This document shows, one piece after another, positions 3,909-51,923 of a DNA stretch of 64,000 nucleotides. The stretch is from Nitrospirota bacterium (GTDB lineage: Bacteria; JACPQY01), in NCBI GenBank assembly GCA_016180645.1, contig JACPAV010000011.1, positions 94,398 through 158,397 on the forward strand, in the 5' to 3' direction. The notes below the pieces were generated by a model. The model saw only the letters and a program-made list of their open reading frames with translations. It ran no database searches and was not told where the DNA came from. The translations under genes and the position numbers were made by a program. Numbering within the stretch: position 1 is the stretch's first letter; every line of letters begins with the position of its first letter.

Positions 3909-4742
3909 ATGCAAATCAGTGAGGGCACGGCGGTTTTGTTCTATCTGGATGCGCGCCGAACGTATCTGAAAACGGTCCATCCCGGGGACAAGCTTCACAC
4001 CCACAAGGGGATGATCTCGATGGACGATGCCATCGGCCACCCCTTCGGAGACTCCATTCGCACCCACCTCGGGAACACCGTCATTCTCCTGGAACCGACA
4101 CTCGAAGACATGATGATGAAAATCCAGCGGCAGACCCAGATCATCTATCCCAAGGAGGCGGCCCTCATCATCCTCAAGGCCGGTGTCCTGAAAGGATATC
4201 GCGTTTTGGAGGTGGGATTCGGCTCGGGCGCTCTCACCATGGCGCTGGCGAATGCCGTGGGGGATACCGGAAAGGTCTACGCCTATGATCGTCGCGAAGA
4301 CAGGATCGAGAAGGCCCTTCGCAATACGCGGTGGCTCAATCTCACCCACACGATCCAGTTCAAGACGGCCTCGATCCCGGACCGGTACGACGAATCGGAT
4401 CTGGATGCGGCCATGGTGGATGTGCCTGAACCGTGGGAAGTGGTCGAACCTGTCTGGACCGCCCTTCGGGGCGGCGGACGCTGGGTGAGCCTGTCCCCCA
4501 CGTACAATCAGGTGGAGAAGACCGCTATCGCGTTGGGTCGAGGCGGGTTCATCTTCCTCGAGACGATCGAAATACTTACGCGGATCATTCTGGCCCGGGA
4601 AGGAAGAACTCGGCCGTTCGAGCGGATGATCGGGCACACGGCATTCCTGACCTTCGCCAGGAAGATCAATGAACGTCGAGCGGAGCCCGTCCCCGAGGTG
4701 CCGGCCGGAGAGGAATCGCCAGAGGCGGTCGAGCCCACATGA
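3909..4742 (+). CDS. trmI: tRNA (adenine-58-N1)-methyltransferase TrmI
   Basis: 277 aa, the usual length for bacterial TrmI. It methylates A58 in the T-loop of tRNA using SAM. The N-terminal beta domain (about 1-75) includes HTHKGMI and a basic surface. The Rossmann domain follows with IIYPKEAALI and the SAM loop EVGFGSGALTMALA (about 99-112). The DLDAAMVDVPEPWE segment supplies the catalytic-pocket Asp. Its stop overlaps the next gene's start as ATGA, so the two are translationally coupled. It is the first gene of an operon with a sulfur-carrier/RadC fusion and ttuA. TrmI and TtuA modify neighbouring T-loop positions (58 and 54), so the grouping makes biological sense. Confidence 0.9.
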   Translation: MQISEGTAVLFYLDARRTYLKTVHPGDKLHTHKGMISMDDAIGHPFGDSIRTHLGNTVILLEPTLEDMMMKIQRQTQIIYPKEAALIILKAGVLKGYRVLEVGFGSGALTMALANAVGDTGKVYAYDRREDRIEKALRNTRWLNLTHTIQFKTASIPDRYDESDLDAAMVDVPEPWEVVEPVWTALRGGGRWVSLSPTYNQVEKTAIALGRGGFIFLETIEILTRIILAREGRTRPFERMIGHTAFLTFARKINERRAEPVPEVPAGEESPEAVEPT

Positions 4743-5713
4743 TCCGGGTGACGTTCAACCACAAGGTCCTGGAATTCGAGGGCTCCATGACCACCGGGCA
4801 GCTTTTGAAAAAGATGAATCTCCTCCCGGAAGTCGTTCTGGTCGCCAAGAATGGCGAAATCGTCACGGAAGACGAGTTCCTCCGCCCCGAAGACGAAGTC
4901 GAAATTATCCGCGCCATTTCTGGTGGAGCGGATCCGGCAAGCCTGCCTCGTTCCAACTCCGTTCCCGGCCCCATCCCCGATGGGGCCCGCGTTTCCTATA
5001 GAATCCCCATAAAAGATTGGCCCGATAGCGATCAGCCGAGGGAAAAGCTGATTCAAATGGGACCGGATTCTCTGAACGATGCCGAACTGCTGGCCATTCT
5101 GCTCCGCACGGGAGTGAAAGGCCTCAGCGCGGTGGACCTCGCCCGGCAGGTCCTCAAGGACGTGGGCGGATGGGCCGTGCTTGCCCGCTCCGATGCCGCC
5201 GACTACCAAGGTGTGAAGGGCTTGGGGCCGGCAAAAATTGCCCAGATTCTCGCCGCGCTGGAAATCGGCCGCCGGGCGGCCCATGCTCCGAAGCCGGACG
5301 AATTGTACATCCGCGGCTCCGGGGACGTTTTTCAACTTGTTTCTCCCAAGCTGCGGGACCTAAAGAAAGAAGTGCTCGACGTGCTCTTTCTCAATTCACG
5401 TAATCATGTGCTGGCCCAGGAGCGCCTCAGCAGGGGAACCGTCAACCGGAGCAGCGTGTTCGCCCGCGAGATTGTGGAGCGCGCACTCCGCCGGGGCGCC
5501 GCGGCTCTGATTCTCATCCACAACCATCCTTCCGGAGATCCTGCGCCCAGCGCAGAGGACGAACGCGTGACCCAGGAAATGGTGTGGGCCGGTGAAATCC
5601 TCAACCTGTGCGTTTTGGATCATGTGATCATCGGCGGGAACCGCCATTTCAGCTTTGCGGATGAGGGAAAGATCGAGGCCATGCGCTCGAAAGCCAGGGA
5701 CAAACGAAAATGA
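4739..5713 (+). CDS. TtuB-like ubiquitin-fold sulfur carrier fused to RadC-type JAMM protein
   Basis: 324 aa in two parts. Residues 1-63 look like a complete ThiS/MoaD/TtuB beta-grasp carrier ending in AISGG, the same ending as free TtuB, but translation continues (ADPASLP). A Pro/Ser-rich linker (64-84) leads to RadC. This begins with IPIKDWPDSDQPREKL, then a helix-hairpin-helix (VKGLGPAKIAQILAALEIG), then the JAMM zinc site HNHPSGDPAPSAED (H261, H263, D274). JAMM proteases cut after Gly-Gly of ubiquitin-like proteins in other systems, so the fusion may process itself. It overlaps trmI and ttuA by 4 bases each. RadC alone has an uncertain role; the annotation 'DNA repair' is historical. The domain architecture is read directly; cleavage is inference. 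Confidence 0.85.
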   Translation: MIRVTFNHKVLEFEGSMTTGQLLKKMNLLPEVVLVAKNGEIVTEDEFLRPEDEVEIIRAISGGADPASLPRSNSVPGPIPDGARVSYRIPIKDWPDSDQPREKLIQMGPDSLNDAELLAILLRTGVKGLSAVDLARQVLKDVGGWAVLARSDAADYQGVKGLGPAKIAQILAALEIGRRAAHAPKPDELYIRGSGDVFQLVSPKLRDLKKEVLDVLFLNSRNHVLAQERLSRGTVNRSSVFAREIVERALRRGAAALILIHNHPSGDPAPSAEDERVTQEMVWAGEILNLCVLDHVIIGGNRHFSFADEGKIEAMRSKARDKRK

Positions 5714-6873
5714 GATGTACCCCGTGCGGACAAAAGGCCATCGTTCACCTCCCAGCCTATCGTCTGCGATTGTGCAAAACGTGCTATCCCGCATGGTTCG
5801 AAAAACATACACAGCGGACGATCGAACGGCTGAAAATGTTCACGCGGCAGGATCGGGTCCTCGTTGCCGTCTCCGGCGGCAAGGACAGCCTCGGCCTCTG
5901 GCACGCTCTTCTAAAACTCGGATACGAAACAGACGGGTTCTACATTCACCTGAGGATCCAATCCGATCACCGCGACGAGGGAGCACCCCCCCCCCCACCC
6001 TACTCGGAGGACTCCCTGACGTTCGCCCAAGCCTATGCAGACCGGATCGGGAGGAAGCTCCACGTCGTCGACCTCCAGGAAACGCTCGGCTTCGGCATCC
6101 CGGAAATTCGCCGGGCCGCGCGTCGCCCGCCCTGTTCACCCTGCGGAACCATCAAACGCCACTACATGAACAGCGTCGCCATCGAGGGCGGATTCGCCGT
6201 CATGGCCACGGGACACAACCTCGACGATGAGGTGGCAACGCTTTTCTCGAATACCCTGCGATGGGATATGGACTATCTATCACGCCAACACCCTGTCCTT
6301 CCGGCCGCGGAGGGCTTCGCGCGCAAAGTGAAACCCTTCTGCTTCTTCTCCGAGAAGGAAACGGCGCTATACGCCCGCGTGGAGGGGATCCCTTACGTGT
6401 ACGACGAGTGCCCTTTTGCGGCCGGCGCCACTTCGCTGCACATGAAAGACGTGATCAACCGGCTCGAACACGATTCTCCCGGGATGAAGCGGACCTTCCT
6501 GGCGAATTTCCTCAAAGCCAAGGATCGTCTCCCGACCGCCCCCAAACCGGAGATGCGCCCTTGCAAGGAATGCGGCGCAATGACCCCATCGCGATTCCAC
6601 TCGCCGTCCCCGGAGCGGAGCGGAGGGGGCGGGGCAGATCCCCATGTAGAATCCGTTCGCCGTCCCGGTGCCGGTCCGAATGAATCTCCATCCACCGTCC
6701 CCGAAGGGGGCCGGAGCGAAGCGGAGCGGGGCGGGGCGCCCACTCCCGCGGAAGTATGCGCCTTCTGCCGCCTCCGGGACCTTACTCGGAACAAGGAAGC
6801 GGCAAGAGTGGAGGCGCTCCACAATCCGATCCCGCGCCCCATGACGACCGCCGAGGACGGCTCGGTTCCCTGA
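5710..6873 (+). CDS. ttuA: tRNA-5-methyluridine(54) 2-sulfurtransferase (TtuA family)
   Basis: 387 aa; TtuA proteins are usually around 300-330. TtuA adenylates U54 of tRNA and replaces its O2 with sulfur delivered by TtuB-thiocarboxylate. Features seen: N-terminal zinc ribbon C3/C6/C22/C25, PP-loop SGGKDS (55-60), the iron-sulfur cysteines C142, C145 and C234, GHNLDDE (168-174), and a C-terminal zinc ribbon C285/C288 and C350/C353. Two oddities stand out. A run of eleven C bases encodes the loop GAPPPPP. A roughly 55-residue low-complexity insert (about 294-348) separates the two halves of the last zinc ribbon. The preceding gene carries a TtuB-like domain, which supports TtuA over the related TtcA/Ncs6 enzymes. 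Confidence 0.88.
   Translation: MRCTPCGQKAIVHLPAYRLRLCKTCYPAWFEKHTQRTIERLKMFTRQDRVLVAVSGGKDSLGLWHALLKLGYETDGFYIHLRIQSDHRDEGAPPPPPYSEDSLTFAQAYADRIGRKLHVVDLQETLGFGIPEIRRAARRPPCSPCGTIKRHYMNSVAIEGGFAVMATGHNLDDEVATLFSNTLRWDMDYLSRQHPVLPAAEGFARKVKPFCFFSEKETALYARVEGIPYVYDECPFAAGATSLHMKDVINRLEHDSPGMKRTFLANFLKAKDRLPTAPKPEMRPCKECGAMTPSRFHSPSPERSGGGGADPHVESVRRPGAGPNESPSTVPEGGRSEAERGGAPTPAEVCAFCRLRDLTRNKEAARVEALHNPIPRPMTTAEDGSVP
5986..5996 (+). repeat. Homopolymeric tract of 11 C inside ttuA
   Basis: Eleven consecutive C encode part of a Pro loop at about residues 92-96 of TtuA. Tracts of this length commonly slip during replication, and a one-base change would end the protein early. Confidence 0.9.
6604..6738 (+). 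repeat. GC-rich repeat-derived insert within ttuA
   Basis: Two related units (6604-6634 and 6695-6738) share the pattern CCGTCCCCG, then GGAGCG/GAAGCGGAG, then GGGGCGGGG. They encode Ser/Gly/Pro/Glu-rich sequence between the two CxxC pairs of the C-terminal zinc ribbon. An inverted, non-coding relative lies at 55693-55716. The insert keeps the frame. It looks like a dispersed palindromic repeat that landed in a loop and was tolerated. Confidence 0.6.
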
Positions 6874-22021: not shown

Positions 22022-22831
22022 TCACCCTCCGGACTTCGGCTCCAGCATGCCCTCCAGCGGGCTGGAAGCCGTGGCGTAGAGTCGGCGGGGAATTCGACCC
22101 GCCCGATAGGCGAGCCGCCCGGCCTCGGCGGCGAGTCGCATCGCGCGCGCCATCTGTACGGGATGCTCGGCACCCGCAACTGCCGAATTCATAAGCACGC
22201 CGTCCGCTCCGAGTTCCATCGCCACGGCCACATCGGACGCCGTCCCCACACCCGCATCCACGATAAGCGGCACTTTCACCAGGTCCCGTATGATTTGAAG
22301 GTTGTACGGATTGCGGATGCCCATGCCGGAACCGATGGGAGCGCCCAACGGCATCACCGCCGCGCATCCCATGTCCGCGAGCTTCCGGCACGTAATGGGA
22401 TCGTCGTTGCAATAGGGAAGCACAACGAAACCCTCGGCCAGAAGGGTCTGTGCCGCCTTCAGCAGCTCGGGCACATCGGGGAATAAGGTCTCGTCGTCCC
22501 CGATGACCTCGAGTTTCACCCAGTGGGTGGTGAGTGCTTCCCTCGCGAGCTGCGCCGTGAGGACGGCTTCCTTCGCCGTGTAGCAACCGGCCGTATTCGG
22601 CAGGATGAAATACCGGGATCGATCGAGGAGTTTCAGCACGCTTTCATCGGAGGAATCCTTCAGGTTGAGGCGGCGAATCGCCACGGTCACCATTTCCGTT
22701 CCACTCGCTTCCAGAGCTTCGAGCATGACGCGAGGGCTGGGGTATCGCGCCGTCCCCAGAATCAATCGCGACCGGAAGTCGCGGTCGGCGATATGCAGGG
22801 TATCACCCCTGTCCATGTCTTGCCCCGGAGC
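22022..22831 (-). CDS. thiG: Thiazole synthase ThiG
   Basis: 269 aa from ATG 22831, 7 bases after the thiS stop; ATGs at 22864 and 22816 are also possible. ThiG builds the thiazole phosphate from DXP, dehydroglycine and ThiS-thiocarboxylate. Seen: [37 protein letters not shown], the Schiff-base Lys in [32 protein letters not shown] and [14 protein letters not shown]. It is the last gene of the operon thiO-thiS-thiG. Confidence 0.96.
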
Positions 22832-22838
22832 CATGCGC

Positions 22839-23045
22839 CTAGCCCCCCTGGACGGGGCGGACAATCTCGATCCGATCGCCCATTTGAATCCGCAGAGAAC
22901 CCCATCGCCCTTTCGGAATCACTTCGTCGTTCACGGCGACGGCCGTTCCCGATTGCTCGGGGGAGAGTTGGAGATTCCGGATTACATCCGACAGGACGGC
23001 ATTCTCATCTACCGACACCATCTCACCGTTCACGGAAACGTCCAT
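22839..23045 (-). CDS. thiS: Sulfur carrier protein ThiS
   Basis: 68 aa from ATG 23045. The frame is open further upstream, but 23045 is right because it follows the thiO stop by 10 bases and gives a standard ThiS. It is a beta-grasp protein ending in VRPVQGG; the terminal Gly-Gly is adenylated and loaded with sulfur. It is a useful contrast with the internal Gly-Gly of the TtuB-like domain at 4739: here the stop codon comes directly after the second Gly. Confidence 0.95.
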
Positions 23046-23055
23046 GACCCCGCCC

Positions 23056-24207
23056 TCATGAATCCAGACGGCGGTTCGCGAACCGCATCGGCGAGAACGG
23101 CCGGAGTACATCCGGGCAGCGGCCGGTCGTCAGCAGTTCGCTCATCGCGTAAGCCGTGATAGGAGTGAGCAGGATCCCATGCCGGTAATGACCGGTGGCA
23201 TAAAAGAGTCCCTGTACGTCCGTGCCGCCAAGCAAGGGCGCGTGGTCTCTGCTCCCCGGCCTCAGCCCGACCTGAATCTCCTCCAGATGCAGCTCATAGA
23301 TCGCGGGCATGGCCTCCCATGCCCGTTGGAGCAGTTTCATGATCGGCCCGGCCGTGGGGAGTGTGTCGAATCCCATCTCCTCACTGGTTGCACCGACCAT
23401 CAGGCGGCCATCGTCCTTCGGCGCCAGGTAGACGTCCGGTGCCCGGACGGCATGTTTGGGCCGGCACGCGTCGGACATCCTGAGTGTGAGAATCTGACCT
23501 TTAACCGGGCGGACGGCCGGCGCGATGGCCGTGGGAATCCCCGCGATGTCGCGCGACCAGCAACCTGCGGCCACGACAACGGTCTCCGCCTCCATCATTT
23601 CCTCGCCGGCGCGAACCCCTCGCACGCGACCGTTCCTGATCGAGATCGATCGGACCGGAGTCTCCTCATGAATTTTCCCCCCTCGTGACTTTACGCCGCG
23701 GATCAAGGCCTCGACCATCGCCCGGTTATTGACCTGGGCGTCACCCGGCATCCACACGGCGGCGCAGGTCCGCGGAGATAGAAGCGGCTCCCGCTCGCGC
23801 GCCACCGCTCCGTCCAGCCACTCTGCGGCCAGTCCCACCCTCTCGCGGAATCGCATCAACCGCCGCAGCCGTTCGACATCATCGCGGTTGAGACCGATCA
23901 TCAGGCTCCCGCTGCGATCCATCGCCACCTTCCTTCCCGAATCCTCTTCCAACTCCTGGATACACTGCGGGTACAAACGGAGGCTTGCCTCGGTGAGGCG
24001 CAGGAGGTCTTCCTCTTCAAATCCCGCCTCTGCGCCCGGGGCCAGCATCCCGGCGGCCACCCAACTCGCGCCACGACCCGCCCGGTCGCGTTCGAGAATT
24101 TCAACGGATCGGCCCCGACGCGCGAGCTGCCAGCCGAGGGAGAGGCCGACGATTCCGCCTCCGACGATCACGATCCTCTCATGCTCCACGATGGTGCCCC
24201 CAGTCAT
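23056..24207 (-). CDS. thiO: Glycine oxidase ThiO
   Basis: 383 aa FAD-dependent amine oxidase that turns glycine into dehydroglycine for ThiG. The N-terminal dinucleotide fold IVIVGGGIVGLSLGWQLARRG and SWVAAGMLAPGAEA are diagnostic. VVVAAGCWSRDI, GQILTLRM and YATGHYRHGILLTPI follow, the last being the FAD/substrate region. Using ThiO rather than the radical-SAM ThiH implies thiazole synthesis works with oxygen present. First gene of the thiO-thiS-thiG operon. Confidence 0.94.
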   Translation of the reverse strand: MTGGTIVEHERIVIVGGGIVGLSLGWQLARRGRSVEILERDRAGRGASWVAAGMLAPGAEAGFEEEDLLRLTEASLRLYPQCIQELEEDSGRKVAMDRSGSLMIGLNRDDVERLRRLMRFRERVGLAAEWLDGAVAREREPLLSPRTCAAVWMPGDAQVNNRAMVEALIRGVKSRGGKIHEETPVRSISIRNGRVRGVRAGEEMMEAETVVVAAGCWSRDIAGIPTAIAPAVRPVKGQILTLRMSDACRPKHAVRAPDVYLAPKDDGRLMVGATSEEMGFDTLPTAGPIMKLLQRAWEAMPAIYELHLEEIQVGLRPGSRDHAPLLGGTDVQGLFYATGHYRHGILLTPITAYAMSELLTTGRCPDVLRPFSPMRFANRRLDS

Positions 24208-50834: not shown

Positions 50835-51839
50835 ATGAACACGAAGAGAATCACTCTTGCCATCGCGGCGTTCGGGCTGCTTTCAGCATCCTGTTCTCTC
50901 ATCTTTCGCTCAACCATCCCGAACGTCGGTCCACCGCCGGCGATCAAGGTACAGGCGTCCCCAGATCAGCTTGAGCGAGGACGGTATCTTGCCCGCCATG
51001 TGACCGGCTGCATCGATTGCCACTCGGAGCGGGACTTCCATCGTTATTCCGGCCCCGTCGTGCCTGGAACGGAAGGGAAAGGCGGATTTGTTTTTGGCAA
51101 AGAGATGGGTTTGCCGGGAACAATACCCGCATCCAATATTACGCCGGCCGCTTTGGGCAAATGGTCGGATGGCGAGATCGCGCGGGCCATCACCAGCGGA
51201 GTGACGCGCTCGAATGAAGCCCTCTTTCCGATCATGCCCTACCCCCGCTACAACGCGATGGATGCGTCGGACCTCCATGCGATAATCGTCTACGTCCGCA
51301 GCCTGAAGCCCATCGATAACAAAGTACCTTCCCGTCAGCTCGACTTCCCTCTCAACCATGTGGTGAAGACCCTTCCCCGGCCGGCCGCGCCTCAACCGCG
51401 GCCCGACGCGAAGGAATCGGTCGCGCTCGGACGGTATCTCGTGAACATTGCCGCCTGCTCGGACTGCCACACGCCGACGAAGAAAGGTACGCCGATTGCG
51501 GGCAAGGAATTCGCCGGTGGAGGTGAATTCGTCCTTCCGTGGGGGAGGGTCCGTCCCACCAACATCACGCCCGATCCCGAAACGGGCATCGGCCAGTGGA
51601 GTCGCGAGAGGTTCATCGGGCGCTTCAAGGAATTCGACCCCTCGAACGGGCGGGTCATTGCGGTGAAGGACGGTGAATTCAACACCATCATGCCGTGGAG
51701 TGAATACAGCGGCATGACCGAGGCCGACCTAGGCGCGATCTACGACTATCTGAAGACGTTGAAACCCATCTCGAATACCGTCGTCCTCTTCACTCCGGCC
51801 GGCGCAAGTCAGGATCACGATTCCAATCGCCGTCCTTGA
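50835..51839 (+). CDS. Dihaem cytochrome c lipoprotein
   Basis: 334 aa. Start fixed by AGGGAGG. The signal TLAIAAFGLLSASCSLI has a lipobox. Two haem c sites: HVTGCIDCHSE and IAACSDCHTP. Each is followed by a long loop with GLPGTIPASNITP or PTNITPDPETG, like the cytochrome subunits of alcohol and aldehyde dehydrogenases. It should pass electrons from a periplasmic dehydrogenase to the respiratory chain; no dehydrogenase is in view. Confidence 0.88.
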   Translation: MNTKRITLAIAAFGLLSASCSLIFRSTIPNVGPPPAIKVQASPDQLERGRYLARHVTGCIDCHSERDFHRYSGPVVPGTEGKGGFVFGKEMGLPGTIPASNITPAALGKWSDGEIARAITSGVTRSNEALFPIMPYPRYNAMDASDLHAIIVYVRSLKPIDNKVPSRQLDFPLNHVVKTLPRPAAPQPRPDAKESVALGRYLVNIAACSDCHTPTKKGTPIAGKEFAGGGEFVLPWGRVRPTNITPDPETGIGQWSRERFIGRFKEFDPSNGRVIAVKDGEFNTIMPWSEYSGMTEADLGAIYDYLKTLKPISNTVVLFTPAGASQDHDSNRRP

Positions 51840-51923
51840 AGCGGAGCGAAATGGGCGGCGCCGCGGCGCGCTGAACCGCGATCTCGGCTTGACATGTGGT
51901 GATGAGCGCGTCAGGCTCCTCCG

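Follow-up and report, generated by a model that had tools for sequence, protein, structure and literature searches.

A TtuB-type sulfur carrier joined to RadC in one chain between trmI and ttuA in a Nitrospirota lineage: a possible self-processing precursor in tRNA thiolation

QbsE/QbsD, HcyS/HcyD and CysO/Mec are pairs of a sulfur carrier and a JAMM protein, in which additional residues follow the Gly-Gly of the carrier and the JAMM protein trims or releases it. Operon associations of carriers with JAMM proteins have been described, and cleavage of ThiS/MoaD fusions by JAB proteins was predicted in 2006 (PMC1779556); a JAMM enzyme of Deinococcus processes a MoaD-MoaE fusion and thereby exposes a C-terminal Gly (PMC8832034). 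In the 2-thiolation of tRNA by Thermus thermophilus, the ubiquitin-like (Ubl) carrier TtuB gives sulfur as a C-terminal thiocarboxylate (PMC3980101, PMC7138817). The side chain of TtuA K137 is required there for sulfur from TtuB-COSH, and not when sulfide is supplied (PMC7138817), while m1A58, the product of TrmI, accelerates sulfur transfer by TtuA (PMC6418473). Deletion of the T. thermophilus JAMM homolog leads to abnormal TtuB conjugates and lowers thiouridine to about half (PMC3980101). RadC is widespread and was long misnamed a repair protein; whether it is a peptidase or a nuclease is disputed. In the open literature we found no paper that links RadC with JAMM and sulfur carriers.

The DNA analyzed here (the window; 64,000 nucleotides of contig JACPAV010000011.1 from a Nitrospirota bacterium, genome G000) contains a ttuB::radC fusion gene of 324 amino acids (4739..5713, + strand). 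The reading frame and its domain matches confirm that this gene joins a complete TtuB-type carrier to a full RadC in one chain. Residues 1-63 (4739..4927, +), which end in AISGG, form the beta-grasp carrier domain: this N-terminal piece, used as the query, matches Pfam ThiS (E = 1.1e-11), and its best solved relative is T. thermophilus TtuB (5ztb, E = 5.9e-6), in an alignment that reaches the terminal AISGG of the latter. The internal Gly62-Gly63 (codons at 4922..4927, +), which corresponds to the C-terminus of most free TtuBs, is followed by a linker predicted to be disordered (residues about 64-88; 4928..5002, +), the RadC N-terminal HhH domain (UPF0758_N, residues 91-168; 5009..5242, +; Pfam PF20582, 1.8e-26) and the RadC JAB/JAMM domain (residues 193-310; 5315..5668, +; Pfam PF04002, 4.1e-40). 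The RadC part scores above the NCBI RadC equivalog cut-off (NF000642), and both RadC Pfam domains are far above theirs. The full JAMM motif, E-x(n)-H-x-H-x(7)-S-x(2)-D, is present (E211, H261, H263, S271, D274), and all five columns are invariant in an alignment with 29 other RadCs. As translated, the product runs 261 residues beyond G63 and has no free C-terminal Gly-Gly unless processed. A preliminary description, made from the letters of the sequence, had recognized a complete carrier ending at residue 63 and a full RadC behind it, with H261, H263 and D274 at the JAMM site, and the Pfam and 5ztb matches bear this out; E211 and S271, which it did not name, are present as well.

The fusion gene sits between trmI, encoding tRNA m1A58 methyltransferase (3909..4742, +; Pfam GCD14, 1.4e-32, and TrmI-like_N), and ttuA, encoding tRNA m5U54 2-thiolase (5710..6873, +; NF049949, 1.5e-78; T. 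thermophilus TtuA 5gha, 1.4e-75). Its start overlaps the end of trmI, and its stop the start of ttuA, in each case as ATGA. Aligned to T. thermophilus TtuA, the window TtuA keeps S55, D59, C142, C145, K149, D173 and C234; it has the PP-loop, the three active-site Cys and, as Lys149, the basic residue at the position of K137. Since this lysine is kept, a Ubl sulfur donor is implied, and the fused carrier is the obvious candidate.

The ttuA gene also carries an in-frame insert of a dispersed, palindrome-flanked repeat of ~150 bp (window about 6590-6740), which splits the C-terminal zinc finger of TtuA between its CKEC and CAFC halves. Copies that are about 77-84% identical occur on contigs C20, C7, C18 and C4 of the window genome and at window positions 51800-51861. 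TtuA of the second genome described below is without this insert.

An independent MAG of the same family (G001; contig JACPQY010000042.1, labelled Nitrospirae bacterium) is 84% complete, so that absences from it are weak. It carries trmI, the fusion (locus L046, 3964-4932) and ttuA in the gene order of the window and with the overlaps. The two fusion proteins are 60% identical overall (carrier 60%, HhH 54%, JAB 71%), whereas the linkers differ in length and share 6 of 16 aligned residues, with 11 gaps; AISGG is unchanged. Judged from these two sequences, selection seems to preserve the carrier and its tail, whereas the linker is drifting. The preliminary description had proposed comparing the internal Gly-Gly among homologs and looking for ttuA nearby: the former is kept in G001 and the latter lies directly downstream, in a trmI/ttuA context that had been overlooked. 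Among the residues common only to the two fused RadCs are R232, F241, R252, W283 and C291, a comparison that rests on two sequences.

The fusion is rare, as might be expected if chance read-through or an assembly error had joined two unrelated genes. An assembly or frame error, or a chance read-through, is ruled out by the independent MAG G001, where the fusion, its gene order and the overlaps recur with a protein that is 60% identical, and we give this explanation next to no weight. Separate translation of TtuB and RadC is also unlikely: the window gene has no in-frame ATG, GTG or TTG from G63 to residue 107 that would serve as an internal start, and no stop in the +1 or -1 frame near the Gly-Gly that would end a frameshifted product. 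A GTG at codon 78 of the G001 gene is not conserved in the window gene.

An AlphaFold2 model of the fusion protein (41 sequences; mean pLDDT 90) has a classical beta-grasp domain and a well-formed RadC. The predicted carrier domain (pLDDT about 95) has the elements E2-6, E9-13, H19-25, E33-37, E40-42 and E53-58, in a beta-grasp fold of about 65 residues. Confidence is low at about residues 60-85, Gly62-Gly63 included, with pLDDT below 50 over most of this stretch; a corresponding model for G001 gives the same picture, its low-confidence stretch being 60-71, and in both predicted models the Gly-Gly lies at the start of the stretch with pLDDT below 50. In VIA-align comparisons of the model, the carrier domain matches TtuB of 5gha (Z = 10.6) and the fused RadC matches the RadC structure 2qlc (Z = 21.9). 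Outside RadC, the JAB domain fits PfJAMM1 best (5lda, Z = 8.8), though by a modest margin over the other JAMM proteins listed. In 5lda, PfJAMM1 is bound to SAMP2, a relative of TtuB, so that each half of the fusion resembles one partner of that complex.

We read the fused carrier as TtuB because it is closest to TtuB in sequence and fold and has ttuA next door. The fusion would then be the TtuB of a trmI-ttuB-ttuA tRNA-thiolation operon, made as a precursor with an entire RadC for its C-terminal 'tail'. The RadC JAMM domain would hydrolyze the bond that follows G63, either within its own chain or on a second copy, giving free TtuB-COOH; a rhodanese-MoeB E1 encoded elsewhere in the genome would adenylate and thiocarboxylate the freed TtuB; and TtuA would pass the sulfur to U54 of tRNA, with help from the m1A58 that TrmI makes. 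Once released, RadC may in addition strip TtuB from proteins conjugated to it, as is thought for the T. thermophilus JAMM protein. A precursor is supported by the Gly-Gly being kept while the linker diverges, with JAMM residues intact, and by the fit of the JAB domain, best to PfJAMM1 among non-RadC structures; the known chemistry of the ttuB/ttuA gene cluster requires a freed Gly-Gly terminus. Cutting of a TtuB precursor after G63 by its own RadC, followed by thiocarboxylation by the E1 and use by TtuA, has in our estimate about an even chance of being correct, and self-processing is the most likely single mechanism. Of the two possibilities raised in the preliminary description, self-maturation is thus the best reading, with a cleavage that we infer, while for a carrier released only on a signal we found no evidence.

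What this would mean for the family is put forward slightly more tentatively, at a little under even chance: a RadC-family protein would be a true peptidase for a Ubl sulfur carrier, the fusion would be a carrier-protease zymogen that processes itself for tRNA thiolation, and the RadC JAMM could act on Ubl tails and not DNA. The main argument against cleavage by RadC comes from a paper which proposes that JABs of the RadC clade act as nucleases instead of peptidases and lack the residues lining the Ubl-tail tunnel (PMC3482391). The fused RadC might accordingly act on RNA or DNA, as an HhH/JAB enzyme brought to tRNA thiolation, e.g., for quality control of tRNA without s2T54/m1A58; HhH domains usually bind nucleic acid, and there are weak matches to HhH proteins. 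In a later review, however, a RadC-like domain matched metalloproteases, not nucleases, in a structure comparison (PMC11981726), and a nuclease leaves unexplained both the kept Gly-Gly and the function of a carrier with a blocked end, so that we consider such a role improbable. The same review reports that the DNA damage sensitivity of E. coli radC mutants is normal (PMC11981726). With a candidate substrate and cleavage site on the same chain as RadC, the fusion offers a direct route to test RadC function.

That the fused carrier is the donor for TtuA is favored by the positions of the other ThiS-family proteins of the genome, which belong to thiamin, Moco and CysO-NIL loci. The window encodes a free ThiS (22839..23111, -; Pfam ThiS, 6.3e-13) next to a thiG-like gene (22022-22864) and a thiO-like gene (23056-24207), a thiO-thiS-thiG cluster and not a TtuB partner of ttuA. 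Elsewhere in the genome, a MoaD lies within the Moco cluster on C18, and a CysO/MoaD-like carrier whose internal Gly-Gly precedes a NIL domain is encoded on C9 (L121, 5048-5560), between threonine-synthase-like and sulfate adenylyltransferase genes. By neighborhood, none of these is a TtuB for ttuA. A standalone TtuB serving TtuA, which the preliminary description had named as evidence against its proposal, was found neither in the window genome nor in G001 (84% complete), which encodes the fusion, a CysO-NIL and a MoaD. CysO-NIL genes with an internal Gly-Gly are also present at L249, 1492-2004 (G001, contig C16) and at L258 (G015, where a Prok-JAB adjoins); across G000, G001 and G015 these genes are near threonine-synthase-like, cysteine synthase or sulfate adenylyltransferase genes.

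The further carriers, together with an E1 with a rhodanese domain (rhodanese-MoeB, one encoded in the window genome, on C33), could also fit a fusion that stays uncut, in which the carrier serves to dock RadC onto TtuA, TrmI, the E1 or TtuB conjugates, and U54 receives its sulfur from ThiS, MoaD, CysO or free sulfide. In vitro, TtuA can accept sulfide, and redundancy among Ubl carriers is possible (PMC11323500). Yet a docking domain would not need AISGG, a terminus that is strictly kept despite linker drift, and TtuA keeps the lysine used for TtuB-COSH desulfurization; we consider docking unlikely.

The main rival to self-processing is cutting in trans by another protease, with RadC as a passenger that is made together with TtuB, comparable to the ribosomal proteins translated in fusion with ubiquitin, and has a job of its own. 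A canonical Prok-JAB with the JAMM motif (HSH...SGTD) is encoded on C6 of the window genome and could cut in trans, which weakens the case for self-processing, and the second internal-Gly-Gly carrier of this genome (CysO-NIL, C9) would need cutting too. In G001, on the other hand, no JAMM or Prok-JAB other than the fused RadC was detected (in a MAG that is 84% complete), which favors cutting of the fusion by its own RadC. On balance, a protease acting in trans is a minority possibility, though one to be taken seriously. The window genome has two further RadCs besides the fusion. It also has a JAB-type gene on C20 (L123, 3071-4941) with an E1-like gene directly after it and another radC copy about 4 kb away; the surroundings include ParB-like and other mobile-element-like genes, and the locus may represent a ubiquitin-like system.

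TtuBs that run past the Gly-Gly also occur apart from the fusion (loci L089, L095, L100, L103, L093 and L090), most of them near ttuA. Their tails are short in G015 (GG-AE), G219 (GG-DHAVCQV), G379 (GG-SSGD) and G341 (GG-V; no ttuA nearby), and longer, about 20-30 residues, in G077 and G086. As far as sequence can tell, such TtuBs would need trimming ahead of use, implying precursors in several lineages; TtuB precursors thus seem not to be unusual, and those of the other lineages would mean that bacterial s2T54 synthesis includes one more step, the processing of TtuB. Among tailed TtuBs the fusion would be the extreme, with the candidate processing enzyme itself as the tail. A canonical Prok-JAB is encoded in 6/6 genomes with tailed TtuBs vs. 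4/11 without tails (Fisher one-sided p = 0.017, ignoring relatedness), as cutting in trans would lead one to expect. In some other genomes, however, the canonical JAB adjoins cysO/cysM or sat genes, not ttuB, and the correlation may therefore reflect sulfate assimilation.

The distribution of the fusion was assessed in two heavily overlapping genome samples (386 and 385; about 390 genomes in all). TtuB-like matches at 1e-6 were obtained in 37 of the 386 genomes (some being ThiS of thiamin loci), and the RadC fusion only in the window genome and G001; the 385-genome sample yielded it only in G001. A TtuB-domain scan of 84,980-species genome contigs with two strict peptide patterns returned 6 loci, one of which is G001 and the other 5 of which include no proven fusion. 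By tblastn, plasmids and phages gave RadC matches only and no carrier fusion, and a viral scan with a single RadC sequence gave no match; an alignment-based viral scan supplied RadC rows for the models. The one match with >80% cover, from Rubrobacter, is an ordinary RadC annotated to start 3 bases ahead of the match and was judged a chance extension. Frames in G312, G030 and G177 that resemble long carrier fusions are thiamin-locus ThiS genes: in G030 (L119, 5492-7033) ThiS and ThiG share one frame with GGG inside, a ThiS-ThiG fusion, and in its relatives G177 and G312 the ThiS frame ends separately. A Caldiserica TtuB (L047, 3504-3697) reads AISGGT up to the contig end, so that a tail or fusion is possible; RadC is a separate gene elsewhere.

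About 17 other TtuBs lie near ttuA, with trmI nearby in four of the fetched loci and radC absent within the fetched ~6 kb; in HR37, TtuB ends in Gly-Gly-stop just ahead of ttuA. ttuB is thus usually a free gene beside ttuA, in some cases accompanied by trmI; the fusion seems to have arisen locally and is seen in one family-level lineage, a restriction that weakens the case for self-processing. The earlier suggestion that RadC functions in sulfur transfer is not supported beyond this lineage by such a distribution, with the fusion in 2 of about 390 genomes and those ttuA-linked ttuB loci without radC in the fetched ~6 kb.

The arrangement in this lineage is a variation on a known combination, carrier fusion plus JAMM, for which rarity and an inferred cleavage limit the claim. 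Like the RadC/UPF0758 family (2qlc), the fused RadC has full HhH and JAB domains with JAMM residues intact; unlike that family, it has an N-terminal carrier domain and a place in a trmI/ttuA cluster, whereas in the loci examined ttuB/ttuA have no free RadC gene close by. The phage tail assembly TAPI-JAB fusion of one E. coli prophage likewise has a Ubl and a JAB in one chain, with release of the Ubl by the JAB proposed (PMC1779556), but it is a phage tail protein, neither sulfur carrier nor RadC. In QbsE/QbsD, HcyS/HcyD and CysO/Mec, the genes are separate and the protease is a canonical Prok-JAB, while here one gene encodes both and the protease candidate is RadC. MoaD-MoaE (MoaX) proteins, e.g., DR0402 of Deinococcus radiodurans, share with the fusion an internal Gly-Gly carrier needing release, there by JAMM (PMC8832034); their tail is the partner enzyme of the carrier and the JAMM is another protein, whereas here the tail itself is the JAMM protein. 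The TtuB/TtuA/TtuC pathway to s2T54 in T. thermophilus also uses a TtuB-type carrier, a TtuA with the catalytic residues, an E1 and an m1A58 methylase, and in it a JAMM protein affects TtuB conjugates and the thiouridine level (PMC3980101, PMC7138817). Thermus TtuB is free and ends in Gly-Gly, with the JAMM protein separate, whereas in the present lineage the carrier and a RadC-type JAMM form one chain within the gene cluster.
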